From: Aliiroseovarius sediminilitoris
GTDB lineage: Bacteria; Pseudomonadota; Alphaproteobacteria; Rhodobacterales; Rhodobacteraceae
Reading direction: 5' to 3'
DNA: 64,000 nucleotides
Assembly: GCF_900109955.1 (NCBI RefSeq)
Contig: NZ_FOJB01000001.1
Span: 620,001-684,000 of the forward strand
In this document: positions 5,112 to 17,835 of the stretch, one piece after another
Position numbering within the stretch: position 1 is the stretch's first letter
How the letters are laid out: each line of letters opens with the position of its first letter
Made by a program: the position numbers and the translations under genes
The notes under the pieces: model-generated
The model's database searches: none
Seen by the model: only the letters and a program-made list of their open reading frames with translations
Told to the model about the DNA's origin: nothing

Positions 5112-8100
5112 CTATCTGTCAATCTCGATCACGCCATCAGCGTCTGCGGCCCGGCTTTGGCACAGGATCATACTGTTTGCGCGCTGGGCGTTGGACAGGA
5201 CGAAGTCGCGGTGCTCGACCTTGCCCGAGATCACGCCGCATTTGCAGACGCCACAGATGCCGTCTGAGCATTTCACATCGACATGAACACCCGCGGTGTT
5301 CAGCGCCCCTGCTGCTGTTTGATCCTTGGGCACCGCGATCCGTCGCCCATCTTTCAGTTTGATGGTGAACGGGTGGTTCTCGTAATCCGGTTGTTCGGGC
5401 GGGGTGAAGTATTCCAGATGCAGCGCTGTTTCGGGAATGCCCTGCCGCGCCGCTGCCTCCATCACCGATGACATATAGCGGTCAGCGCCGCAGCAATAGA
5501 CATGCGTGCCGTCTGGTGCGCCTGACAGGATCGCCTCGAAATCCGCCCGCGTGCCTTCATCCGAGAAATGAAGATGCACGTGTTCCGCCCATGGCATCGC
5601 AGAAAGGTCGGTCAGAAATCCCGCTTCAGATCGGCGGCTGGCCGAATAGTGCAGCGCGAAATCCGCGCCGATGGCGTGCAGACGATGGGCAAACGCGATC
5701 ATGGGCGTGATGCCGATGCCACCGCCCATCAGAAAAGTTCTTGAGGCGCTTTCGTCCAGTTCAAAGTGGTTGATCGGCTTGGCGACGAAAACCTTGCGCC
5801 CCTCGGTGAATATCCGATGCAACAGGGCTGAACCACCGCGACCGTCCGGTTCGCACAAGACTCCGATTTGATAGCTCATCCGATCCGCAGGATCACCCGA
5901 CAACGAATACTGACGCAGGAAATCTGGCGATACCAGCACATCCAGATGCGCGCCGGCGGTCCATTCGGGAAGCGGGGCACCGTCGAGGGACGAGAACTCG
6001 TACTTCTTGACACCTTCGGCCATAGGGTCGACCCGCTTCACCACCAACTGCAACACAGGCGCATCATCAGGCACGGTGTAACGATGGATCATCGTTTGAT
6101 CACCTGCCGCCAGCCGGGTGCGGTATTCGCTGGCCGGGATCATCGCCTGATAGGCTGCGATTCCGGCCTCGCGTTCCATTGGGAACGGATATGGATAAGG
6201 CGGCGGGGCAAGGGGGGCGGGATAAACAGCGAGTGTCTGATCTTCATAGCGAAGGCTCAGATCGCGGTTCAGTCCTCGACGGTTTGCCGGAATGTCGGTC
6301 GGATGATACCCGCCATCCGGGCCAAGTTTCAGATCCCACCACCATTTCTTGGTGTCATTCAGTTCACCATGGCCGACGGCATCATCCAGTTTCGCCAAAA
6401 CGGGGGCCGCACCTGGCAGGGTCGATGCCGCCCAGCGGAACGGAGTCTGCGCAAACAGCCCTTCAAGGTTCCACGGGCAGGTTTTCATACACCGACCACA
6501 CATGGCGCCACCGGGTTGGGTTACGCGATAGGTTGTGCATTTCTGACTGTCGGATTTCCAGATCTCATAGCCGTTGAACATCAGCTTCGGTCCGGCGGTG
6601 ATGGCACCCGATGGGCATTCGCGCGCGCATTTGTTGCAGGCTTCGCAGAACCGTTGCAGGCCGAAGTCGATTGGTTTGTCATGTGCTATCGGCATATCGG
6701 TCGTCACCACCCCCGATTTCAGGCGCGGGCCAAGATAGGGGTTCAGGATAACCTCGCCGATCCGGCTGACCTCGCCCAATCCGGCTAGAAGCAGAAGGGG
6801 CGGTTGCAGGACAGTTCCATCCATCACGGTATGCGCCTTGGCGGCATAGCCAAGGTTGCGGATATGTTGTGCGATCACGCCACCGATCAGAGAGAAACGC
6901 AGATAAGCGCGCATGGATTGGCTGACGGCGATCCAGTCGTCCCCCGACGCGCCCTCCATCGTCTCAAATCCCTGATCCACGATCATCGAGACCGCTTGAC
7001 CATGCGAGGGCTTGATCTCGGCCCCTGTGGCATCGTGGCTGTACCACACCCATTCCGGGCAGCGACTGGTGCCCACTGCGTCGATCCCAAGGAAATAACT
7101 GGCAGCCTTTAGCGCGGCGGCGTTTGCGACCGGGTCACTGGGACGGCTGGCTTGATCCGCGACGGGTCCGTCCTGTAGGGGTGTCAGCACCCCCAATGCG
7201 CGGCGCTGGGCATAGCTTGGCGCCGCCTTGCGAACATAAAGTCCGCCGGACGAGTTTTCCTGCAAGTGCTTTCCCATGTCACCGAATTGTGCGCGGGCAA
7301 ACATGTCGGCGCGTTTCGGAACGCGGGCAACATTGGGTTCGTCGATATAGGTTGTCGGCGTGTCGACACGCTTCAGGCGCTCGAACGGATGGGCGCCCAT
7401 GGCATAGTCGCGCTTGGCGTATGGGTCGCGGTTCAGCGCCGATTTCGTTGTCTTTGTTCCCAGCCACCACGTCGGTCCGTTGATCTGGTGCCATGGTTGT
7501 CCCGACATTGGCGCAAGAGCCTTGTCGGGTGTCAGCGCCATGTCGGTCGTCACCGCCGCCAGTCCGAACCGAGGGCCGATCCACGGCGCAACGATTTGTG
7601 CGTTCTCGATCGTTGCCAGACCCGCTGCAACCGCCAGCCGGTTCAGATCAACATCGGTGGCAGACCCCGTATGCGCCCTGGCATCAAAACCCAGAAGACG
7701 GATGTAGTTTGCAATGACAATGGCGGTTTCAGCCCCCAGCAGACAGGCGCGCTGCGCCTGCGCATCCATGATCCATGCGGCCCCCGGTTCGTCCGGTCTG
7801 GGGTCGCGGTGATACTCATAAAGGAATACCAGAGCATACCGGTGGCAGCTGATCTCGCGTGGCGATGCCCCAAGATTTTCGCGCAGTTCTGCCATCAATG
7901 TGTCGATGCCAGCGGCCAGTGTGTGCACTTCGCGGCTGTTGAGTGACGTGACAAGCGCCCCAATATTCGGATTGATGATCGGCTGTCTCAGAAAGTCATC
8001 TGACCCCAGATCCGCGATACCCACCATGGACGCGTCCGAGAAATAGCCAAACGCTTTCAGATGCTCGGCGCGCGCGGTGGGGTCATCGGGGATAGTGGCC

Positions 8101-8318
8101 CGCGCCGGGTTCACATCGCCATCCCGTATCGCGTCCAGTGCAGCCTGATAGGGCGCCATTGCATTGACGATGCTGTCCGGTTGGTCGGCACGGTCAAACC
8201 GCACCGGCGACAAGGCGGGTATGCCAGACAAATCGGGTGTGCCGTCTGTGCGGCTCAGCCCTTCAAGCGGGTATGGTCCCATATGCACCGGGCGGTTCTT
8301 GGTCGAAAACAGCCGCAT
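5112..8318 (-). CDS. self-sufficient (respiration-independent) reductive dehalogenase, RdhA-reductase fusion
   Basis: 1068 residues. Residues 1-330 form a degenerate cobalamin-type half, 340-640 the catalytic RdhA domain, 755-960 an FNR-type flavin/NAD(P)H reductase, 980-1068 a plant-type [2Fe-2S] ferredoxin. Iron-sulfur ligands of the RdhA part: Cys558/561/564/568 and Cys594/607/610/614 (two 4Fe-4S clusters). The reductase has RQYSL (802-806) and GGGIGITP; the ferredoxin has Cys1017/1022/1025/1053. No Tat signal is seen, so it is cytoplasmic and catabolic, like BhbA and NpRdhA. The Tyr/Lys/Arg catalytic set recalled for NpRdhA (426/488/552) falls at Tyr472/Lys534/Arg598 here with one constant offset. 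It should use cobalamin and NAD(P)H to remove halide, probably from halogenated phenols. Its ATG lies 1 base after the sulfatase stop. Confidence 0.9.
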   Translation of the reverse strand: MRLFSTKNRPVHMGPYPLEGLSRTDGTPDLSGIPALSPVRFDRADQPDSIVNAMAPYQAALDAIRDGDVNPARATIPDDPTARAEHLKAFGYFSDASMVGIADLGSDDFLRQPIINPNIGALVTSLNSREVHTLAAGIDTLMAELRENLGASPREISCHRYALVFLYEYHRDPRPDEPGAAWIMDAQAQRACLLGAETAIVIANYIRLLGFDARAHTGSATDVDLNRLAVAAGLATIENAQIVAPWIGPRFGLAAVTTDMALTPDKALAPMSGQPWHQINGPTWWLGTKTTKSALNRDPYAKRDYAMGAHPFERLKRVDTPTTYIDEPNVARVPKRADMFARAQFGDMGKHLQENSSGGLYVRKAAPSYAQRRALGVLTPLQDGPVADQASRPSDPVANAAALKAASYFLGIDAVGTSRCPEWVWYSHDATGAEIKPSHGQAVSMIVDQGFETMEGASGDDWIAVSQSMRAYLRFSLIGGVIAQHIRNLGYAAKAHTVMDGTVLQPPLLLLAGLGEVSRIGEVILNPYLGPRLKSGVVTTDMPIAHDKPIDFGLQRFCEACNKCARECPSGAITAGPKLMFNGYEIWKSDSQKCTTYRVTQPGGAMCGRCMKTCPWNLEGLFAQTPFRWAASTLPGAAPVLAKLDDAVGHGELNDTKKWWWDLKLGPDGGYHPTDIPANRRGLNRDLSLRYEDQTLAVYPAPLAPPPYPYPFPMEREAGIAAYQAMIPASEYRTRLAAGDQTMIHRYTVPDDAPVLQLVVKRVDPMAEGVKKYEFSSLDGAPLPEWTAGAHLDVLVSPDFLRQYSLSGDPADRMSYQIGVLCEPDGRGGSALLHRIFTEGRKVFVAKPINHFELDESASRTFLMGGGIGITPMIAFAHRLHAIGADFALHYSASRRSEAGFLTDLSAMPWAEHVHLHFSDEGTRADFEAILSGAPDGTHVYCCGADRYMSSVMEAAARQGIPETALHLEYFTPPEQPDYENHPFTIKLKDGRRIAVPKDQTAAGALNTAGVHVDVKCSDGICGVCKCGVISGKVEHRDFVLSNAQRANSMILCQSRAADADGVIEIDR

Positions 8319-8319
8319 T

Positions 8320-9975
8320 TCAGGTTTGATCCACCGACGTGGCCTTGCCGGAATAGGCGGTCAGATAGTCTGGCGGTATATCTTCGTCTCCGAACAGACC
8401 CAACAGAATACCGACGCGAGCAGATCCTCCTTTGCGCCGCGCTTCGATCTGCGCGTCCGAGATTGTGGTGCGGTGCGATTGCCGCCGCGCCCAGTGAAAC
8501 AGCTTGTCATAAAGGGCTGAGATGACTTCAGCATGATCACCCGACGCGCCCAGATCGACCAACTCGTCGGGGTCGTTTTGCAGGTCGAACAGCATCGGTC
8601 GAAAGCCGCCCTCGGCATGCGTCATCTTCCAACGGTCGGTCACGACCATGAACAGCCGGCAATCCTTCGGTGCAAGCCCCAGCCTGGAGGCCGCGCCCGA
8701 GGTCGAGAAGTCATATTCGCTGATCGCAAAATTGCGCCACGCGGTGTCTTTCCCTTCCAGAAGCGGCACCAGGGATCGGCCTTCAAGGATATGGCGCGGC
8801 ACCTCTCCGCCAGCCATCTCAACAAACGTGGCGGCAAGGTCGATCTGCTCAACCAACTTGTCGCAGACCGTGCCACGACGGGAATCGGCCGAGGGCCGAG
8901 GGTCAGAGATGATCAGCGGCACCCGTGCGGATGGGTCGTGGAACATGTCCTTTTCGCCCATCCAATGGTCGCCCAGATAATCGCCATGATCCGAGGTGAG
9001 CACGATCACCGTGTCATCTGCCTGCCCGGTGTCATCCAGATAATCCAGCAACCGCCCCAACTGGTCATCGCATTGCTTGATCAGCCCCATATAGGCGGGG
9101 ATGACGGTTCTGCGCACCTCGTCGCGGGAAAAGGCGGTGCCGACGCCGCCCTCCATGTAAGCACCGTAGACCGGGTGCGGATCTCGGCGTTCGGCGTCAG
9201 ATCGAACCACGGGCACGATGTCGTCCACGCCATACATATCGTGATAGGGCGCGGGCACAATATAGGGCCAGTGCGGCTTGATGAAGCTGACATGGGCACA
9301 CCACGGTCCCTTGCCCTTCTGCGCCTCGATGAAATCAATCGTGCGGCTTGTCAGCCACGGCGTTTCGCTGTCCTCTTCCCGGATGTTCGCAGGCTTGTCG
9401 GCATGCATCATCAGGAACCCCGAAGCGATGTCGCCTGCGCCCGTGATGCCTGCATTTGCATTGTCGTGCCACGGGTTTTCCGATGGGTAGCCCTTTGCTT
9501 TGAGATATTCGTTATAGGGCGAACGTTTTCGGTCATAGAACCCGTCCGGCCCCTCGGCCCAGAGTCCATCGTCACGAATCCATACATCGAACCCGCATTC
9601 TTCGACGCGCGCACCGATGACACTGTCTGGCGACAGGCCCAGCCGCGCCATACCTTCGGCATCCGCTTTCATGTGGGTCTTGCCGATCAGCCAGCACTCC
9701 ATCCCGGCTTTGCGCAGATGGTCGCCCATCGTCATTTCGCCAACCTTCAGGGGGAAGTTGTTATGAGCGGCCCCGTGCGAAGACACATAGCGGCCGGTAT
9801 AGGTGCTCATCCGGCTGGCACCGCAGACGGGTGACTGGCAATAGGCGCGATCAAATCGCACCCCGCGCGCGGCCACACGGTCGAAACTCGGTGTTTCTAA
9901 TGTCGGGTGTCCGGCACAGCTGAGATAATCGAACCGCAACTGATCATACATGATGAAAAGGATATTTGGAGCCAT
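8320..9975 (-). CDS. sulfatase / phosphonate monoester hydrolase-family enzyme
   Basis: 551 residues of the alkaline-phosphatase superfamily. The metal site begins with Asp11-Gln12 (IMYDQLRFDY); the nucleophile motif is Cys51-Gly-Ala-Ser-Arg55, a CxAxR version of the sulfatase signature in which Cys becomes formylglycine. A second metal motif is LTSDHGDYLGDH, with the GEKDMFHD stretch following. No signal peptide is visible, so the enzyme is cytoplasmic. The ATG at 9973-9975 has GGGAGG seven bases upstream; the upstream GTG at 9990 is part of that ribosome site. It is translationally coupled to the dehalogenase, suggesting sequential attack on one substrate. Sulfate ester, phosphonate monoester or phosphodiester substrates are all possible. 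Confidence 0.85.
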   Translation of the reverse strand: MAPNILFIMYDQLRFDYLSCAGHPTLETPSFDRVAARGVRFDRAYCQSPVCGASRMSTYTGRYVSSHGAAHNNFPLKVGEMTMGDHLRKAGMECWLIGKTHMKADAEGMARLGLSPDSVIGARVEECGFDVWIRDDGLWAEGPDGFYDRKRSPYNEYLKAKGYPSENPWHDNANAGITGAGDIASGFLMMHADKPANIREEDSETPWLTSRTIDFIEAQKGKGPWCAHVSFIKPHWPYIVPAPYHDMYGVDDIVPVVRSDAERRDPHPVYGAYMEGGVGTAFSRDEVRRTVIPAYMGLIKQCDDQLGRLLDYLDDTGQADDTVIVLTSDHGDYLGDHWMGEKDMFHDPSARVPLIISDPRPSADSRRGTVCDKLVEQIDLAATFVEMAGGEVPRHILEGRSLVPLLEGKDTAWRNFAISEYDFSTSGAASRLGLAPKDCRLFMVVTDRWKMTHAEGGFRPMLFDLQNDPDELVDLGASGDHAEVISALYDKLFHWARRQSHRTTISDAQIEARRKGGSARVGILLGLFGDEDIPPDYLTAYSGKATSVDQT

Positions 9976-10051
9976 GCCCGCGCCTCCCACGGCATATCAT
10001 TCTGTTCGCAATGGAATCAGTTGAGCATGGACGCGAAGGGGGCGCTACCCC

Positions 10052-10070
10052 ATATTGGATTCAATATCCA
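10052..10070. promoter_or_regulatory. candidate operator upstream of sulfatase-dehalogenase cassette
   Basis: Two interleaved palindromes: ATATTG-gatt-CAATAT (10052-10067) and TGGAT-tcaat-ATCCA (10056-10070). They lie about 77 bp upstream of the sulfatase start, where a repressor or activator would sit. The AT-rich symmetric form suits a GntR-, LacI- or MarR-type dimer; no regulator gene adjoins. The remaining bases of 9976-10106 show no clear promoter hexamers. Confidence 0.4.
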
Positions 10071-10106
10071 TTTCCTGTGGAGGTTGGGCTTCTCACCGGG
10101 TGTGGG

Positions 10107-10436
10107 TCAGGTCGCCTGTTGAACCCGTTCGATATAGGCACGAAGCTCACCCGCTTCTTGACGGGCGTCACGCAGACCGTCCATAGCGGCGCTAAGTTCT
10201 GCCTCGGTCTGTTGCAACTGGTTGGACATTTCAGCCTCGCGCTGCTGTAGATAGATCATGGCCTGATCGCGAGTTTCTTCTGCTTCGTGAAGGGCCTGAG
10301 CCATCTTGTCCAGCTCGTCCATTTCGGTTCCGGCGACCTGAACGAACCGATGGATCAGCCAATGGGAAAACCATCCAAGTGCGAATGCCACGAACAGGAT
10401 GATGGCGGTGACGATGATAAACTCTGTTCTGTTCAT
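10107..10436 (-). CDS. small single-pass membrane coiled-coil protein
   Basis: 109 residues. A hydrophobic N-terminal segment (EFIIVTAIILFVAFALGWF) is followed by a long charged heptad-like helix (MDELDKMAQALHEAEETRD onward, then QQREAEMSNQLQQTEAEL) to the end. It is predicted to be anchored in the inner membrane with an extended coiled coil. It starts 24 bp after the OmpA-family gene stop on the same strand, so the two probably form an operon and may work together at the envelope. I do not recognise a named family. Confidence 0.75.
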   Translation of the reverse strand: MNRTEFIIVTAIILFVAFALGWFSHWLIHRFVQVAGTEMDELDKMAQALHEAEETRDQAMIYLQQREAEMSNQLQQTEAELSAAMDGLRDARQEAGELRAYIERVQQAT

Positions 10437-10460
10437 CGTGGGAAGTCCTTGTTTGGTGGC

Positions 10461-12554
10461 CTAGCGCTCGGGGCGCGGTTGGGGGCGGGTGTCATCGGCT
10501 TCGGGCGAGTGCACATCTATGCCGCTATCGGGTAGCGGGTCGGTGTCAGGGGCTGCGTCTTCGTCGGTCGGGTTGGCATCGCCCTCGTCAGAATCTGCGC
10601 CAGCGTCTGTCTCCGCGGCCCCGGCATTTTCGGCGTCCGCATCTGCGGGGGTGCCGTCATCTGGCGTGGAATCAGCATCACCAGCGCCATCGGACCCTTC
10701 CTGATCTGTGCCCGTATTGTCATCCGACCTCCCGGATGTATCGAGCAGACGAAACTCGATCCGGCGGTTGGCTTCGCGACCTTCCTCAGAGCCGTTATCT
10801 GCAATCGGATCAGCCTCGCCATAACCCTTTGCGGTCAGGTTTGTCGTCAGAATGCGCCGCGTCAGAAGTGCATTCAACACTGCCTGTGCCCGGCTTTGCG
10901 AAAGGGCAAGGTTCATTTCCTCGCGACCTTGACTGTCGGTATAGCCCTGAATTTCCATGCGGACATCCGCGCAGTCCTTCATAATCTCGGCGATCTCGTC
11001 GATGGTATCGGCGGCGGACGCTTCTATGTTGGCTGATCCGGGCGCAAATGTGATCTTCTTCTTCGCCATGATGGCATTGATATTGGCGGCGCATTGCTCT
11101 GGGCTGGGCAACGACAGAAGTGGATCAAGCTCTTCCTGATAATCCACATTGATCTGGAAATTCTCGGACGCCCCCAGTTTTTCGCTCAGAATGCGCGAGA
11201 CGGTGTCGCTTGCATCCGGGTCGCCGGTGACGCCGCGAATGTCCACGACCTCGGGTTGGACCACGACCGACCCGCTGGACAGAAAGGACAGGGCTTCCAA
11301 TCCCGCAAGAACACGCGTCGGCCAATCACTTGGCAGTTCGCTGTCCAGCCGTGTAGCAGGATACACATTGCCCGATCCGAACTTCGCCCGAGCAAAGCTC
11401 ACGGTGGCGCTTCGCAAGGTTTCATCGGTCAGGCGGCCCCGCATTTGCACCATTCCTTCTGGACTTCGGGTGGCGACAAATTCGGGTGGCCCACTGCCTT
11501 CGCCGCTGCCGTCAATCTTGACGGGCGCTGGCAGGACGGAATGCAGGGAATAAAGGTCGGGCAGATTGTTCTCCAACTCGCCAACAATACGGTCAAAGGT
11601 TGCCTGTGATGTGGTGTCGGGGGCCACAAGTGTCACGTCCGCGTCCGAGAAGGTGATTGATCCTCCGCCCAGCTCGCTGACCGCACGAATGCCGGTTTCG
11701 ACGGCGTCCGGCCAATCTGGTGACGGCACACCCAATCCGATGGTGCAATTTGCTGCGTCGGTCAGGCCAGCTTCGGTTGCCGCCGATACAATCCGCGCGC
11801 GCCCGACGGTGGTGTGTGCGGAACACGCATCGAAGCGTGGGCCGTTTTCGTCGATCAGGAACCGCAATGTGAATGGGGTGATCACTGGTCGCGGTGCCGA
11901 AATATCAATCGACAGAAGGGCCGTGCGGGGGGCTGCGCGTTTCAGATCGCGCGCCCACTTGGCTTTCTGATCTTCGCTATCCGCCAGCGCAGTGATTGCC
12001 ACTTTATGCGCATCCATAGATATTTTCGAGCGTGGCAATGTCTCAAGTGCGTAAACCGCGAAGGCCAGCGCCTCGTCCCAATTGGCGGGCATTGGATAGT
12101 CAGCGGTTTCAAGCAGGTCGGTGACATGGGAATCGCGTGCAATTGCGTTAACGTCGCTGTTAAGGGCCTCGCGGTCAGTGGCCGCCGGGATTAGGCCTAT
12201 CATGGAAATACCGGCGTCATTGCGCAAAATCTCGATCGAAAAGCGCGGCGGCTTGATCGCTTCAGCTGCGGGGATCGTCACGTTATCAATGACACGGGTC
12301 GAATCAACAACCTTTCCGGCTGCCGCGAGCGCCCGAAACCGGGCGGCTTCACTGGGGGCCACGCCGGACAGGATAACCTGAAGCCCATCGGCTTGGACGC
12401 TGGCCCATTCATGGCCCTGCAGGAACAGTTCGTCCTTGACGCCGTCCTGCGACGTTGTCTCGATGGTGGACACCGCAAGATTGGCTGCAAGAAGTGACAC
12501 CAAAGCCGCAATAAAGAACGAGGCGGGAACAAGAAAAACTTGCGAAAGGCGCAT
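10461..12554 (-). CDS. OmpA-family protein with BON-like repeats and acidic C-terminal tail
   Basis: About 697 residues from ATG 12554 (MRLSQVFLVPAS, a signal-anchor-like start); an in-frame ATG at 12587 gives 11 more residues but has no better ribosome site. The long N-terminal part has repeated alpha/beta units resembling BON domains (GVKDELFLQGHEWASVQADG onward). Near residues 495-605 is a peptidoglycan-binding OmpA domain with FAPGSANIEA, IQGYTDSQGREEMNLALSQ and ANRRIEFRL. A ~90-residue Asp/Ala/Glu/Gly-rich tail follows. It probably ties the envelope to peptidoglycan. The gene is followed by the coiled-coil membrane protein. Confidence 0.87.
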   Translation of the reverse strand: MRLSQVFLVPASFFIAALVSLLAANLAVSTIETTSQDGVKDELFLQGHEWASVQADGLQVILSGVAPSEAARFRALAAAGKVVDSTRVIDNVTIPAAEAIKPPRFSIEILRNDAGISMIGLIPAATDREALNSDVNAIARDSHVTDLLETADYPMPANWDEALAFAVYALETLPRSKISMDAHKVAITALADSEDQKAKWARDLKRAAPRTALLSIDISAPRPVITPFTLRFLIDENGPRFDACSAHTTVGRARIVSAATEAGLTDAANCTIGLGVPSPDWPDAVETGIRAVSELGGGSITFSDADVTLVAPDTTSQATFDRIVGELENNLPDLYSLHSVLPAPVKIDGSGEGSGPPEFVATRSPEGMVQMRGRLTDETLRSATVSFARAKFGSGNVYPATRLDSELPSDWPTRVLAGLEALSFLSSGSVVVQPEVVDIRGVTGDPDASDTVSRILSEKLGASENFQINVDYQEELDPLLSLPSPEQCAANINAIMAKKKITFAPGSANIEASAADTIDEIAEIMKDCADVRMEIQGYTDSQGREEMNLALSQSRAQAVLNALLTRRILTTNLTAKGYGEADPIADNGSEEGREANRRIEFRLLDTSGRSDDNTGTDQEGSDGAGDADSTPDDGTPADADAENAGAAETDAGADSDEGDANPTDEDAAPDTDPLPDSGIDVHSPEADDTRPQPRPER

Positions 12555-12618
12555 GTTGAATGGCGTCCGTTGTCTAGTGAATCCCATGCTTCATAAGGTG
12601 TGTCGCGTCCCGGCGCAA

Positions 12619-13587
12619 TCAAAGCAATATCGCAATGGCGAGAAACAGCACAGGGATCAGTCCAGTATTCCGGTTGGATCGGAACAGTCGCAGGCAGGTT
12701 TCCGGATTGTCTGTTTTCAGTTGCCCGAGTTGCCACACCATATGCCAACCCATGAACCAGACTCCGCCAAGAGCGATGGCCAATGACAGGACATTTGCAC
12801 CGGGAACCAAGGCCAAAACAACTGCAAATGCCATCAGGGCAACCGTCAGAATCTGAAACAACAGCAACCAACGTCGGCTGTTGTCGCCAAACAGGCGGGC
12901 GGTGGATTTTACACCGATCAGGGCGTCATCTTCGGTGTCCTGATGGGCATAGATCGTGTCGTAAAACAGTGTCCACGCGATACCTGCGACATAAAGCATC
13001 ACTGCGGGCCAGCCAAGGCTTCCGGTATGCGCGGTCCACGCCAGAAGCGCGCCCCAGTTGAAGGCGATGCCCAGAAAGACCTGTGGCCACCAGGTAAACC
13101 GCTTTGCAAACGGATATATGGCGACTGGCAGCAGTGAGATAATGCCCAGCAAGATGGTCGCGCCGTTGAAGGTCAGCAGAATGCCAAACGCGATCAGGGC
13201 TTGCAGCGCCATCCAGATTGCGGCTTGCCGTGCCGTGACCTGCCCGGATGGAATAGGGCGACTGCGCGTTCGTTCGACCCGCGCATCAATGTCCCGGTCG
13301 GTGATGTCATTCCACGTGCAACCCGCCCCACGCATCAGCCAAGCGCCGATGGCACACCCCAACATGATCCACACATCAAACCAACCGAAACGCCCGGTGA
13401 CGTTGGCGGCAAGCAATACCCCCCACCAGCATGGTAGCAGTAAAAGCCAGGTGCCGATGGGTCGGTCCGCGCGGCTCAGGCGCAGGTAAGGGCGGCTCCA
13501 TGTCGGGGCGCGATGATCGACCCAATTGCCGCTATAGGCGTCGGACACCCGCCCTTTTGGCTCTGGCATATCGGCGTTTTGGGTCAT
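12619..13587 (-). CDS. ubiA: 4-hydroxybenzoate octaprenyltransferase
   Basis: 322-residue polytopic membrane protein. It attaches a polyprenyl chain to 4-hydroxybenzoate in ubiquinone synthesis at the inner membrane. The first prenyl-diphosphate/Mg motif is NDITDRDID with the upstream RPxxS-like context (RSRPIPSG), the second is DTIYAHQDTEDD; eight or so hydrophobic helices surround them. Length is close to the family norm, with a ~25-residue hydrophilic N-terminal extension. It is divergent from rsmE with only 11 bp between start codons, so the two promoters must overlap neighbouring coding sequence. Confidence 0.95.
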   Translation of the reverse strand: MTQNADMPEPKGRVSDAYSGNWVDHRAPTWSRPYLRLSRADRPIGTWLLLLPCWWGVLLAANVTGRFGWFDVWIMLGCAIGAWLMRGAGCTWNDITDRDIDARVERTRSRPIPSGQVTARQAAIWMALQALIAFGILLTFNGATILLGIISLLPVAIYPFAKRFTWWPQVFLGIAFNWGALLAWTAHTGSLGWPAVMLYVAGIAWTLFYDTIYAHQDTEDDALIGVKSTARLFGDNSRRWLLLFQILTVALMAFAVVLALVPGANVLSLAIALGGVWFMGWHMVWQLGQLKTDNPETCLRLFRSNRNTGLIPVLFLAIAILL

Positions 13588-13598
13588 AGGTTTCCCTC

Positions 13599-14324
13599 AT
13601 GAAACAGGCGAAAGTCAGGCTCTATGTAGATCACCCCTTGGCCGAGGGGCAAACCGTTTCGCTGTTGCGGGATCAAGCACATTATCTTTTTGCGGTAATG
13701 CGGCTGGGCGAAGGCGACCTTGTGGCCCTGTTCAACGGGCGTGACGGAGAGTTCCCGGCACAGATCATCGAAGCCGGGAAGCGCAAAGGCGTTCTGGAAT
13801 GTGCGGCCCGGTCGCGTCCCTTGCATATGCCGCCTGACCTGTGGCTGTGTTTTGCGCCGATCAAGAAAGCCCGCACCGATTTTATCGTGGAAAAAGCGGC
13901 TGAAATGGGCGCGGCCCTGATCCAGCCGATGCAGACGGAGTTCACCAATTCCGAACGCATCCGCCGCGACCGCCTGCAAGCACATGCTGTCGAGGCGGCC
14001 GAGCAATGCGGTGGCACCTATGTGCCCGAGGTTGTTGACTTGATGCGCATGGACAAACTGCTGGACGCTTGGCCCGATGATCGTCAGATCATGTTCTGTG
14101 ACGAGTCATTGGCGGGGGCCGCGGAAACCCTGAGTGCGGCCAGCGGCCATCGCTGGGCGATCTTCATCGGTCCCGAAGGCGGTTTTTCCGACCGCGAACG
14201 TGGGCGCCTGCTTGCTATGGATGTCGCGCATCCGGTCAGCCTTGGCCCGCGCATCCTGCGGGCGGATACGGCTGCGGTCGCTGCGATGACCCTGTGGCAA
14301 CAGACCTTGGGGGATTGGGCGTGA
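13599..14324 (+). CDS. rsmE: 16S rRNA (uracil(1498)-N(3))-methyltransferase
   Basis: 241-residue SPOUT methyltransferase that methylates U1498 of 16S rRNA. N-terminal PUA-like segment with RDQAHYLFAVMRLGEGD; C-terminal trefoil-knot SAM site with IGPEGGFSDRE and SLGPRILRADTAAVAA, both diagnostic. The stop overlaps the next start in a GTGA, giving coupling to the acetyltransferase. Confidence 0.95.
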   Translation: MKQAKVRLYVDHPLAEGQTVSLLRDQAHYLFAVMRLGEGDLVALFNGRDGEFPAQIIEAGKRKGVLECAARSRPLHMPPDLWLCFAPIKKARTDFIVEKAAEMGAALIQPMQTEFTNSERIRRDRLQAHAVEAAEQCGGTYVPEVVDLMRMDKLLDAWPDDRQIMFCDESLAGAAETLSAASGHRWAIFIGPEGGFSDRERGRLLAMDVAHPVSLGPRILRADTAAVAAMTLWQQTLGDWA

Positions 14325-15187
14325 TCCGCGTGGCAAAGCCGGGCGATGAAGGCGCGATTGATGCCTTCCTCGCGCCACGTTCCGAAAGCTCAATGTTTCT
14401 GCGATCCAATCTGGCACAGTTCGGCGTCAGCCCCGATCAGTCCGATGATCCGCGCGCTACGACCTTCTGGCTGATCGAAGAAGGTCCCATTCGCGCGGTG
14501 TTTGGGAAAAGCAATGCCGGGTTTCTGATGGGGCAGGCCCCCGACAATCACCGGACCGATTGGCGGGCATTTCGTCACGTATTGCGAGGAGCAAAGGTGG
14601 CAGGCATCACGGGCGAGACACATCAGATCAAGACTGCGCTGGATATTCTGGGCCTTCGCGATGCAGCGTTTTCCGTGATGCGGGACGAACCGCATTACAG
14701 ACTGATTCTTCAGGACCTTGAGCGCCCGACAGGCAATGCGCAGCTTCGTCCGGTCAGGTCGGATGAGTTCGACATGCTGGTTGACTGGATCATCGACTAT
14801 GACACCAGCGTGCTGGGATCGGCGATGAATGCGGAAACCCGCACCCGCGCCCTTGCCAACGCCAGCGCACACATGGATTCCAAAAACCATCGGATTTTGG
14901 AAGTGGATGGCATACCCGTCGCCAAAACCGCGTTCAATGCGGCATTGCCCGACATGGTGCAGGTCGGCGGTGTTTATACGCCCCCGGAACATCGGTCGAG
15001 AGGCTATGCCCGCACGGCAGTCGCCCTGCATCTGCTGGAAGCGCGCGAGCGTGGTGTGACGACCGCGATCCTGTTTGCCAGCGGCGAGCCCGCCTGCCGC
15101 GCTTATGAATCGATCGGTTTTCGAAGGATCGGCACCTATACGCTGGGCATCCTCGCTAAAGCGCAGGTGATTGGAGCTGAGGAATGA
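14321..15187 (+). CDS. GNAT family N-acetyltransferase
   Basis: 288 residues from GTG 14321, which overlaps the rsmE stop; an ATG at 14294 is in frame but lies inside rsmE and lacks a reason to be used. The C-terminal half carries the GNAT acetyl-CoA signature in VGGVYTPPEHRSRGYARTAV (about 205-225) and the following helix-strand with ASGEPACRAYESIGFRR. The N-terminal half is a divergent GNAT-like repeat. Substrate unknown. Adjacent rsmE and ribosomal genes elsewhere do not settle whether a protein or small molecule is acetylated. Confidence 0.83.
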   Translation: MIRVAKPGDEGAIDAFLAPRSESSMFLRSNLAQFGVSPDQSDDPRATTFWLIEEGPIRAVFGKSNAGFLMGQAPDNHRTDWRAFRHVLRGAKVAGITGETHQIKTALDILGLRDAAFSVMRDEPHYRLILQDLERPTGNAQLRPVRSDEFDMLVDWIIDYDTSVLGSAMNAETRTRALANASAHMDSKNHRILEVDGIPVAKTAFNAALPDMVQVGGVYTPPEHRSRGYARTAVALHLLEARERGVTTAILFASGEPACRAYESIGFRRIGTYTLGILAKAQVIGAEE

Positions 15188-15696
15188 GCTTTATGCGACC
15201 CGAAGCACGCGATGCGTTTGCCCGGTATCGCGAAGCCATGGTGGGCGGCGGGATCATACTGTTGGGTCTATGGTGGGCAATCGAATCGCTGGGCCTGGTC
15301 AAGTGGATCGGCCTGGCCGTCGCGGCATTCGGTGCTGCGATCCTGTGGTCGGGCATGCGTCATGCACGCATCCGTGCGGGTCACGGCGGTGTTGGGGTGG
15401 TGCAGGTCGATGAACGGCAAATCACTTATCTGGCCCCGGTCGGTGGCGGCTTTGCGTCGCTGGACGATGTCGGTCGGATCGAGATTGCCAAAGACCGCGC
15501 AGGCATGGCTGTTTGGCGGTTTCGCACCGGCAACGACATTCTGTTCATTCCAGTGCGCGCTGAAGGGGCCGAGGCATTGTTTGACGCGTTGACCGCCTTA
15601 ACGGGTGCAGACATTGACGGGGCGATCCGAGCGGCCAATACGCCACCCAATGATACTGTTGTGATCTGGCAGCGCCCGGCCGTATCGCTGCATTGA
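15184..15696 (+). CDS. two-helix membrane protein of unknown function
   Basis: 170 residues, ATGA overlap with the acetyltransferase. Two close hydrophobic helices (GGGIILLGLWWAIESLGLV and IGLAVAAFGAAILWSGM) are followed by a ~110-residue soluble part with alternating beta strands (GVVQVDERQITYLAPVGG, RIEIAKDRAGMAVWRFRTG). This layout, with strands and a C-terminal helix, resembles membrane-anchored PH-like domains, but no family is recognised. Its coupling to GNAT and rsmE suggests an operon running toward glutamate-cysteine ligase. Confidence 0.78.
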   Translation: MSFMRPEARDAFARYREAMVGGGIILLGLWWAIESLGLVKWIGLAVAAFGAAILWSGMRHARIRAGHGGVGVVQVDERQITYLAPVGGGFASLDDVGRIEIAKDRAGMAVWRFRTGNDILFIPVRAEGAEALFDALTALTGADIDGAIRAANTPPNDTVVIWQRPAVSLH

Positions 15697-15760
15697 CAGT
15701 CCCGCCCCATTGGCCCACCACTGAAAGACCTTGCAAGGCGCGAACAGTCAGGAGACGCCC

Positions 15761-17131
15761 ATGTCCATCCCTCAGTCCGGCGGCGGACCCATCACCCATC
15801 ATGACCAACTGGCCCGGTATCTGGAAGACGGCTGCAAACCGCGTGATACGTGGAAGATCGGGACCGAGCATGAAAAGTTCGGCTACTGCAAAGACACACT
15901 GAAACCGCTGCCCTATGATGGACCGCGGTCGATCCTGGCGATGCTGGAAGGCTTGCGGGACCGCTTTAACTGGACCGAGGTGCGCGAGGCGGGCAACCTG
16001 ATTGGCTTGGAACGTGACGGGGCGAATATCAGCCTTGAACCCGGTGGGCAGTTCGAGCTGTCTGGCGCGCCCTTGGACAGTATCCACCAGACTTGCGACG
16101 AGGTGAACGAACACCTGCGCGAGGTGCAAGAGGTGGCCGAGGGGATCGGCGCGCGTTTCATCGGTCTGGGGGCGGCCCCCGAATGGACGCACGAACAGAT
16201 GCCTGTGATGCCCAAGGGGCGTTACAAGCTGATGACCGACTACATGGACAAGGTTGGGACACACGGCAAGCAGATGATGTATCGGACCTGCACGGTGCAG
16301 GTGAACCTCGATTTTGCGAACGAGGCCGACATGGTGCAGAAATTCCGTGTGGCGCTGGCGTTGCAGCCTGTGGCCACCGCGCTTTTCGCCAATTCACCGT
16401 TCTTTGAAGGAAAACCGAACGGTCACAAATCCTGGCGGTCGCGCATCTGGCGTGATCTGGACCCGGCCCGCACCGGGATGCTGCCATTCGTCTTCGAAGA
16501 CGGGATGGGGTTTGAGCGCTATGTCCAATACGCGCTCGATGTGCCAATGTATTTTGTCTATCGCGAGGGCGTATATGTGGACGCGCTGGGTCAGTCTTTC
16601 CGCGATTTCATGCAAGGCAAACTGCCCGCGCTGCCCGGAGAAAGGCCGACGTTGTCCGATTGGGCCGACCACTTGACCACCATCTTCCCCGAAGCGCGGA
16701 TCAAGCAATACATGGAAATGCGCGGCGCCGATGGCGGCCCGTGGCGCCGACTTTGTGCGTTGCCTGCGTTCTGGGTGGGGCTGATGTATGACCAAAGCAG
16801 CCTTGATGCAGCGTGGGACCTTGCAAAAAATTTGGGTGCCGAAACCCGCGAGGATCTGCGGGTTGCCGCTTCGGTCAAAGGGTTGCAGGGCGAAGCGGGC
16901 GGCGTGAAGCTGCACGATCTTGCTCGCGAGGCGGTAAAAATAGCCGAAACTGGTCTGAAGGCGCGCGCACGGGCAGGGAATGCGGGGCTGGTGCCCGACG
17001 AAACTCATTTCCTGAATGCCCTTCAGGAAAGTGTCGAGGAAGGGCGTTCGCCCGCCTGTGAATTGTTGGCCAAATATCACCACGAATGGGACGGTGATTT
17101 GAAACGGATCTATGCTGAATACAGCTACTGA
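15761..17131 (+). CDS. gshA: glutamate--cysteine ligase (plant/alphaproteobacterial type)
   Basis: 456 residues. It makes gamma-glutamylcysteine, the first step of glutathione synthesis. Family motifs seen: WKIGTEHEKFGY near the N-terminus, ISLEPGGQFELSG, MYRTCTVQVNLDF, RSRIWRDLDPARTG and a C-terminal WVGLMYDQ. This matches the GCS2-type plant/alphaproteobacterial ligase, not the E. coli GshA fold. ATG 15761 is preferred over a TTG at 15731 because AGGAGA lies just upstream. A strong hairpin downstream closes the gene. Confidence 0.94.
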   Translation: MSIPQSGGGPITHHDQLARYLEDGCKPRDTWKIGTEHEKFGYCKDTLKPLPYDGPRSILAMLEGLRDRFNWTEVREAGNLIGLERDGANISLEPGGQFELSGAPLDSIHQTCDEVNEHLREVQEVAEGIGARFIGLGAAPEWTHEQMPVMPKGRYKLMTDYMDKVGTHGKQMMYRTCTVQVNLDFANEADMVQKFRVALALQPVATALFANSPFFEGKPNGHKSWRSRIWRDLDPARTGMLPFVFEDGMGFERYVQYALDVPMYFVYREGVYVDALGQSFRDFMQGKLPALPGERPTLSDWADHLTTIFPEARIKQYMEMRGADGGPWRRLCALPAFWVGLMYDQSSLDAAWDLAKNLGAETREDLRVAASVKGLQGEAGGVKLHDLAREAVKIAETGLKARARAGNAGLVPDETHFLNALQESVEEGRSPACELLAKYHHEWDGDLKRIYAEYSY

Positions 17132-17232
17132 GATGCTTTGAGTCTTCCGCGAAAGGCGGTTTTCAGGAGGCTCGTTCTACATATGAAGGGGCGCTGCCCC
17201 TCGGCCTCCCGCTGCGCGGGCGCCCTCACCCC

Positions 17233-17255
17233 GGGATACTTGTGACAAGAAAAAG
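17233..17255 (+). repeat. 23-bp intergenic element, copy 1
   Basis: Starts GGGATACTTG and ends ACAAGAAAAAG. It matches copy 2 (17366-17388, other strand) at 20 of 23 positions. Both lie downstream of a coding region in sense orientation, directly before or near a terminator. Elements of this type after genes are, from memory, widespread in Rhodobacteraceae. Confidence 0.6.
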
Positions 17256-17276
17256 AGAGGGGGCTGCCCTCTCTTT
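17252..17276 (+). terminator. rho-independent-type terminator of gshA
   Basis: Perfect 10-bp stem AAAGAGAGGG / CCCTCTCTTT around a GGCTG loop, followed by a T-containing stretch. It sits ~120 bp after the gshA stop and would also stop leftward transcripts. Confidence 0.75.
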
Positions 17277-17365
17277 CAAGCTTTCGCTTTTCCTTGTACG
17301 GTCATCGGCGTCCCCGCCTGTACCGCTGAATCAGAATAACGCTCATTGGTTAACAAAATGTTGCG

Positions 17366-17388
17366 CTTTTTCTTGTTTCAAATATCCC
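17366..17388 (-). repeat. 23-bp intergenic element, copy 2 (inverted)
   Basis: Read on the minus strand it starts GGGATATTTG and ends ACAAGAAAAAG, with three differences from copy 1 (17233-17255). It lies 3' of the leftward gene at 17593-17835, mirroring the position of copy 1 after gshA. Confidence 0.6.
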
Positions 17389-17592
17389 CGCCGGAGGCTG
17401 CCATCATTTCGACGCTTGGTGACGATGCGCCTGATGTGCACGCAAGATATGGCATTCCAGAACTGCACGCGATGCTTTCCAACTACGGATGACCTTAGCG
17501 CGGCAAACGGGCGGCAGTCATGACGCACATGCTTGCGATCGACCTCGGCACATCTCATCGCGTGCCCCTTTTGGACGCCGCGCGGCGAGTGT

Positions 17593-17835
17593 TCATTCGT
17601 CTTTTATCTGCGCCGAGCGATAGATCCCTTCTGGCAGGTTCAAAGCCGCCGTCAGGTCCCTGAGTTGTGCAAGCGACAGGGTGATCCGGTGCACAAGATC
17701 CGTGCGCGGGTCCCATTGTTCCAACGTGACGCAGTCGTCAAACGCGTTGATCGTGACGTCTTCATTCAGATGCTCGCGGCCCTCGTCCACAAGGGTGACG
17801 ACAGTGGCATCAAATTCGTGCTCAATGGTAAACAT
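17593..17835 (-). CDS. conserved-looking 80-residue acidic protein
   Basis: 80 residues, acidic, no membrane segment or cysteine pair (a single Cys in DDCVTLEQWD). The sequence is well-behaved protein: alternating strands (FTIEHEFDATVVTLVDEG, NEDVTINAFDDCVTLEQWD) and an amphipathic C-terminal helix (SLAQLRDLTAALNL). I do not recognise the family. It is divergent from the IMPACT-domain gene, with 93 bp between them. Confidence 0.65.
   Translation of the reverse strand: MFTIEHEFDATVVTLVDEGREHLNEDVTINAFDDCVTLEQWDPRTDLVHRITLSLAQLRDLTAALNLPEGIYRSAQIKDE

Follow-up and report, generated by a model that had tools for sequence, protein, structure and literature searches.

An arylsulfatase gene adjoins a predicted self-sufficient reductive dehalogenase gene in Aliiroseovarius sediminilitoris

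What natural substrate might be met by a reductive dehalogenase that carries its own reductase, in a class treated in the articles consulted in terms of bromoxynil, one flame retardant and model bromophenols? We took up this question at a locus of Aliiroseovarius sediminilitoris, contained in a 64,000-nucleotide stretch of contig NZ_FOJB01000001.1 (hereafter the window), in which the minus-strand open reading frame (ORF) at 5112..8318 is predicted to encode a self-sufficient reductive dehalogenase (RdhA, gene rdhA). An earlier note on this DNA, made from its letters alone, recognized the dehalogenase and missed that the stop codon of an arylsulfatase gene lies one base ahead of the rdhA start. 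RdhA itself is a further member of the known fusions with a phthalate dioxygenase reductase (PDOR), and it widens that class rather than founding one; what is new is the linked arylsulfatase, which offers this class a natural substrate that can be tested. We propose, with moderate confidence, that a sulfated bromophenol first loses its sulfate to the sulfatase, exposing the phenol, and is then debrominated by RdhA.

A single-chain reductive dehalogenase

The ORF starts with ATG and runs for 1,068 codons without an internal stop, and the genome holds one copy (100% match over residues 1-1068). The profile check proposed in the earlier note gave 199.4 bits with TIGR02486 (reductive dehalogenase, RDH), above the cut-off of 160.35; BhbA, taken as a control, gave 203.3 bits. 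Pfam models PF12838 (Fer4_7) and PF00111 (Fer2, residues 991-1057) also exceeded their cut-offs. PF13486 matched neither the protein nor its genome, nor any of the 14 control genomes; because the known member BhbA and the Nitratireductor OM-1 enzyme go unmatched too, the miss is a limit of that model, which we dropped as the deciding profile.

A sequence search of the PDB returned NpRdhA (4ras, 6zxu; E ~1e-161) over residues 1-108 and 158-738, and aligned phthalate dioxygenase reductase 2pia with residues 748-1065. An AlphaFold2 model built from a 26-row alignment (mean pLDDT 73.2, pTM 0.65, the catalytic half being the weaker part) matched NpRdhA with a TM score of 0.88 by target length at 39% identity, followed by self-sufficient P450s and 2pia. 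No twin-arginine (Tat) motif was seen in the N-terminus, which was read by eye and with no signal predictor. Judged from its sequence and fold, the protein is very probably a non-respiratory RdhA that is self-sufficient, its reductase and ferredoxin being part of the same chain. Alignments, profiles and model thus agree with the earlier note, which had read a degenerate and an active RdhA half, two 4Fe-4S clusters, an FNR-type reductase, a plant-type ferredoxin, no Tat signal and dehalogenation without respiration. By analogy with JtRdhA (see below), the enzyme would use NAD(P)H and tolerate oxygen; the genome also encodes the cobaltochelatase CobN.

The predicted duplicated halves follow from the alignment with NpRdhA, and every domain lies on the minus strand. 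The N-terminal half (about residues 1-330, 7329..8318, border approximate) was delimited by that alignment and the model, and would be vestigial and non-cobalamin-binding by analogy with NpRdhA (PMC10463259). The catalytic, cobalamin half (about residues 395-740, 6099..7136, borders approximate) carries S468, M469, Y472, K534 and R598, which correspond to NpRdhA S422, M423, Y426, K488 and R552 and do not vary in any of the 92 aligned RdhA rows (four of them repeats); F340, the counterpart of NpRdhA F291, sits just ahead of the catalytic stretch and outside this tally. Roles reported for the NpRdhA residues are phenolate binding and proton donation, with K488Q and R552L badly compromised (PMC7565698). 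Two 4Fe-4S motifs, located by profile and alignment (residues 558-617, 6468..6647), read CEACNKCARECP at residue 558 and CGRCMKTCP at residue 607; C558, C561, C564 and C568 are invariant in the same 92 rows, and C607, C610 and C614 in a 33-row alignment. The flavin/NAD(P)H reductase module of PDOR type (about residues 750-975, 5394..6071), which includes RQYS at residue 802, was placed by 2pia and the model, and the plant-type 2Fe-2S ferredoxin domain (about residues 984-1067, 5118..5369) by PF00111 and the cysteines C1017-x4-C-x2-C and C1053.

Among known systems, JtRdhA of Jhaorihella thermophila (WP_104007082), characterised in 2023, is NADPH-driven and works aerobically on bromo- and iodophenols only, chlorophenols acting only as inhibitors (PMC10463259). 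Compared by description, it shares with the window enzyme the absence of Tat, the duplicated cobalamin domain, two 4Fe-4S clusters, the PDOR fusion and the key residues, and its identity to NpRdhA (~39%) is that of the window enzyme (39%). The class is defined as catabolic RdhAs with a vestigial duplication and a PDOR fusion; a tree legend of the same article names RdhA genes of Ruegeria pomeroyi, Tropicibacter and Pseudovibrio (PMC10463259). BhbA of Comamonas sp. 7D-2 (plasmid pBHB, L086), which belongs to bromoxynil degradation (PMC10463259), has the same architecture and profile matches at 50% identity, and its cluster holds protocatechuate 4,5-dioxygenase (ligAB), a tricarboxylate-transporter binding protein and porins, with no sulfatase in a gene table that is incomplete. 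NpRdhA of Nitratireductor pacificus (4RAS, 6ZXU) is alike in the fold of window residues 1-738 and in its active-site residues, but is without reductase and ferredoxin domains and also reduces chlorinated compounds. The earlier label 'NpRdhA-type' is inexact because NpRdhA has no reductase; the chlorinated substrates suggested in the same note are doubtful in light of JtRdhA. Ros_A3X954 of Roseobacter sp. MED193 is likewise a marine, non-Tat reductive dehalogenase and debrominates 2,6-dibromophenol; the position of its 4Fe-4S motifs, residues 283-345 (PMC13101508), suggests to us that the long duplicated N-terminal half of the fused type is missing.

Such enzymes are not few, as had been supposed, because 151 of 394 sampled Rhodobacteraceae genomes (393 genera) hold an rdhA relative (threshold E 1e-100). 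The majority of the matches listed span nearly the full length, and in eight plasmid records a relative covers 80% or more of it. The copies in G269 (L127:2985-6184) and Primorskyibacter aestuariivivens (L077:10043-13233) are frame-broken in or near the vestigial-catalytic linker, and are probably ordinary broken or misread copies.

The adjoining arylsulfatase

Profile scanning of the rdhA neighbours returned one sulfatase and one histidine kinase. The sulfatase gene (8320..9990, minus strand) was assigned to PF00884 and to the SpAS2 type by profile, by its match to 4UPL and by its motif. It meets rdhA in a TGA-A-ATG junction (8316..8322), with one base between stop and start, a spacing that suggests a shared transcript; a terminator scan returned 8 candidates against 4.2 in shuffled sequence, and none was used. 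The listed start is GTG, although an ATG at 9975 behind GGGAGG is more likely. By eye, no signal peptide or export signal was seen in the protein. Its motif is of the cysteine type, C56-G-A-S-R60, the sulfatase form being C/S-x-P/A-x-R (PMC12421950).

The nearest solved relative, 4UPL (787 bits over residues 6-547), is SpAS2 of Silicibacter pomeroyi (PMC12421950), for which the available text describes no link to a dehalogenase. SpAS2 acts on 4-nitrophenyl sulfate with a kcat/KM of 2.1e5 (PMC12917725, PMC12421950), and the available account reports that choline-sulfatase activity was not detected for it (PMC5870055); the choline sulfatase model TIGR03417 gave 221.2 bits on the window sulfatase, under its cut-off of 433.45. 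In E. coli, maturation of the sulfatase cysteine is carried out by an unknown endogenous enzyme (PMC5870055). Two further genes similar to the window sulfatase are present in the genome, despite no FGE-type maturase having been found there.

Linkage of the two genes among relatives

To judge how often the pairing recurs, we examined 80 named rdhA loci with up to 10 kb of DNA per side, taking neighbour positions from tblastn coordinates; crude longest-ORF calling was dropped, as it made rdhA starts too long and missed the sulfatase in L001-L003. In eight loci (L001, L002, L003, L041, L047, L063, L064 and L068), a sulfatase orthologue (60-89% identity) is found either immediately upstream of rdhA or no more than 3 kb from it; L001, from A. 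zhejiangensis KCTC 42443, carries the window's pair, and L003 is from Aliiroseovarius sp. S1339. Of the 394 genomes, 151 contain rdhA, 184 contain the sulfatase (E 1e-120 or better) and 114 contain both, a co-occurrence with a Fisher odds ratio of 7.6 and p of 7e-20 that is uncorrected for kinship or marine lifestyle. Physical proximity was also in excess. Among the matches listed (150 per gene, giving at least 95 same-genome pairs), 6 of 95 pairs lie within 5 kb (expectation 0.35) and 8 within 10 kb (expectation 0.59), both expectations assuming 4 Mb genomes and random placement; excluding the window's genus, the pairs among these matches number 4 and 6, respectively. In G137 the sulfatase is on the opposite strand.

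The linked state requires seven changes on an 88-row RdhA tree, at least five of them forced by starred branches. This tree was made by a quick method, with four long rows flagged; it omits the repeats L081, L091, L094 and L097 (the last three taken to equal L041, L063 and L003), which stand in the 92-row alignment, and the partial L064, L077 and L082, and it scores L095 (9.7 kb) as not linked. Both genes are broken in L064, which is not an independent case because its neighbouring genes and the sulfatase tree place it in the window's genus. The rdhA-adjacent sulfatases come from several subgroups: a 33-row tree needs eight changes, at least four forced, which rules out a single clade of RDH-linked sulfatases. 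Open-licence literature returned nothing on topic for reductive dehalogenase paired with arylsulfatase or sulfatase, the sole match concerning calf diarrhoea.

Fuller gene runs occur in relatives. In G379 (L092), eleven consecutive genes lie on one strand: ligA (5161-5553), ligB (5538-6404), a GFO/IDH oxidoreductase that is perhaps ligC (6349-7359), the sulfatase (7356-8996), an MBL protein with an alkylsulfatase dimerisation domain (8996-10258), an aryl-alcohol-dehydrogenase-like SDR (10312-11088; 228 bits with the coniferyl-alcohol dehydrogenase model, cut-off 242), rdhA (11100-14318), PIG-L (14379-15113), ligK (15113-15787), 4-oxalomesaconate tautomerase (15780-16847) and a 4-sulfomuconolactone hydrolase-like gene (16861-17736; 207 bits, cut-off 500). 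Of these, ligA, ligB, ligK and the tautomerase exceed their NCBIfam cut-offs. In G176 (L093), the same-strand run comprises sulfatase, MBL, DctM, an NMT1-like binding protein, SDR and rdhA, and in Sulfitobacter sabulilitoris (L063, taken to equal L094) rdhA and sulfatase are separated by an NMT1-type ABC transporter. The alkylsulfatase-like MBL protein directly adjoins the sulfatase in both G176 and G379; at E 1e-80 or better it occurs in 21 of the 394 genomes, all 21 of which hold rdhA (hypergeometric p 7e-10, kinship uncorrected).

Near the G176 run, a second stretch related to the window's sulfatase gene, 66% alike across residues 5-385, is cut off by the edge of the DNA (L093:17859-19001). 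Sulfatase, MBL, DctM and NMT1 genes also stand together in L121, L122 and L124, and a cassette of sulfatase, DctM and NMT1 minus the MBL gene in L117, each without rdhA inside the 16 kb examined.

Other rdhA neighbours (LysR, FAA hydrolase, amidohydrolase, alpha/beta hydrolase, DctM, TctA, GcvT-like and VanA-like proteins) were considered as a substrate clue and set aside, being locus-dependent and pointing to no single substrate. Gene order around rdhA is common to the window and named Aliiroseovarius loci. Among the 80 named loci, 25, for the most part from Ruegeria, have a LysR regulator divergent from rdhA (e.g. L010:9015-9917, minus strand); no relative was found at the window locus. In Shimia sp. 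Alg240-R146 (L061:6314-13210), rdhA stands right after a gene for a GcvT-like protein, and a VanA-like Rieske oxygenase is encoded farther upstream, a context that would suit O-demethylation of bromoanisole before debromination. The Nitratireductor OM-1 rdhA adjoins pobA.

Proposed substrate, pathway and alternatives

Gene linkage points to a sulfated bromophenol as the substrate. Once imported, it would meet the sulfatase first, because the dehalogenase binds its substrate through a free phenolic oxygen. On the example of JtRdhA and NpRdhA, NAD(P)H would reduce the flavin of the reductase module, from which the 2Fe-2S domain and then the two 4Fe-4S clusters would relay electrons to the cobalamin. 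The phenolate would be held by S468, K534 and R598 with the halogen contacting the cobalt of cobalamin, and Y472, paired with K534, would donate a proton, bromide or iodide being released. Sulfated bromophenols are stored by red algae. Lanosol-4,7-disulfate (2,3-dibromo-5-hydroxybenzyl-1',4-disulfate), a major metabolite in extract of the red alga Vertebrata lanosa (PMC9322897), would suit the arylsulfatase and MBL pair of L092 and L093, because it bears one aryl and one benzylic sulfate. Caution is due, however: just one of its two bromines, that at C3, is in ortho position to the C4 oxygen, and specificity for ortho-halogenated phenols marks the catabolic RdhAs characterised so far (PMC10463259). 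On phenylacetic-acid and benzyl-alcohol bromophenols, a review gave nothing useful.

More tentatively, we suggest that marine Rhodobacteraceae possess an undescribed aerobic pathway for red-algal sulfated bromophenols, of which the window would hold a two-gene core. Import would proceed through a DctM/NMT1-like or NMT1-type ABC transporter. The SpAS2-type arylsulfatase, joined in fuller versions by the MBL alkylsulfatase, would remove aryl and benzyl sulfates, and an aryl-alcohol dehydrogenase, bromine removal by RdhA and protocatechuate 4,5-cleavage would complete the route. If this is true, sulfated algal bromophenols could explain the retention of rdhA in the 151 genomes, and marine bromine and sulfur cycling would be tied to one gene unit.

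The window's core perhaps feeds a homoprotocatechuate branch of its own genome, where HpaE, HpaD and HpaH exceed NCBIfam cut-offs (about G000:C1:1037900-1042050). This branch could accept a product that is catecholic and resembles homoprotocatechuate; detoxification without growth is equally possible. Feeding into the 4-hydroxybenzoate and protocatechuate routes was rejected for this genome, in which PobA is under its cut-off and the intradiol dioxygenase (PF00775) is absent. The genome has two LigB-family matches, HpaD (next to HpaE and HpaH) and a 4,5-DOPA-dioxygenase-like protein below cut-off, and no relatives of the L092 lig genes were found beside them.

Several observations weigh against the proposed coupling of sulfatase and RdhA. 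Within the DNA covered, 72 of the 80 named loci have no sulfatase orthologue, among them L004-L007 and L009 (four named Aliiroseovarius and one metagenome-assembled genome placed among them on the RdhA tree), which keep rdhA at the window's site. The sulfatase is found without rdhA in 70 of 184 genomes, and ten of the loci most closely related to it beyond the genus (L107-L116) show no rdhA in the 12-16.5 kb covered. A promoter scan found 1 candidate where shuffled sequence gave 2.1. FGE (PF03781) was not found in the window's own genome by a search confined to the FGE type, which matched in 4 of 14 control genomes. That genome also lacks the MBL protein, PobA over cut-off, the intradiol dioxygenase and HpaB, which leaves growth on the product no more than a possibility. 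The absence of the sulfatase from many rdhA loci, and its frequency in genomes without rdhA, favour an alternative in which RdhA acts on free bromophenols (algal, sponge, worm or bromotyrosine-derived), as JtRdhA does, the sulfatase being unrelated and serving for sulfur or other aryl sulfates. We consider this unlikely, since the linkage recurs in differing contexts well above chance, the window genes are one base apart, and L092 and L093 contain same-strand runs with rdhA.

A second alternative overlaps the coupled chemistry and differs in the fate of the product: the pair would detoxify bromophenols without growth, and the debrominated phenol would be excreted or left unused. This is possible, if doubtful. 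The missing PobA, intradiol dioxygenase and HpaB speak for it, as does the fact that no further catabolic genes were recognised beside the pair; however, HpaE, HpaD and HpaH could take an already catecholic product, and relatives pair rdhA with ligAB or pobA. That the neighbour is a phosphonate monoester hydrolase (PMH) or phosphodiester hydrolase and no sulfatase seems quite improbable. The PehA model gives 295 bits (cut-off 900), PMH structures are matched and SpAS2 is promiscuous, but SpAS2 scores 787 bits against 227 for the PMH structure 2vqr (RlPMH), and its kcat/KM on phosphonate, 4.0e2, is ~500-fold below that on sulfate (PMC12421950). Finally, the RdhA core is common to PceA, which would fit an enzyme of organohalide respiration, yet the lack of a Tat signal by eye, the fused reductase and ferredoxin and the duplicated core make a respiratory role extremely improbable.

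Elsewhere in the window (16000-64000), ten large ORFs were scanned. Three gave no strong match, and the other seven are housekeeping genes (LolC/E, ParE, IleS, UvrC, PriA, PurD and XseA).

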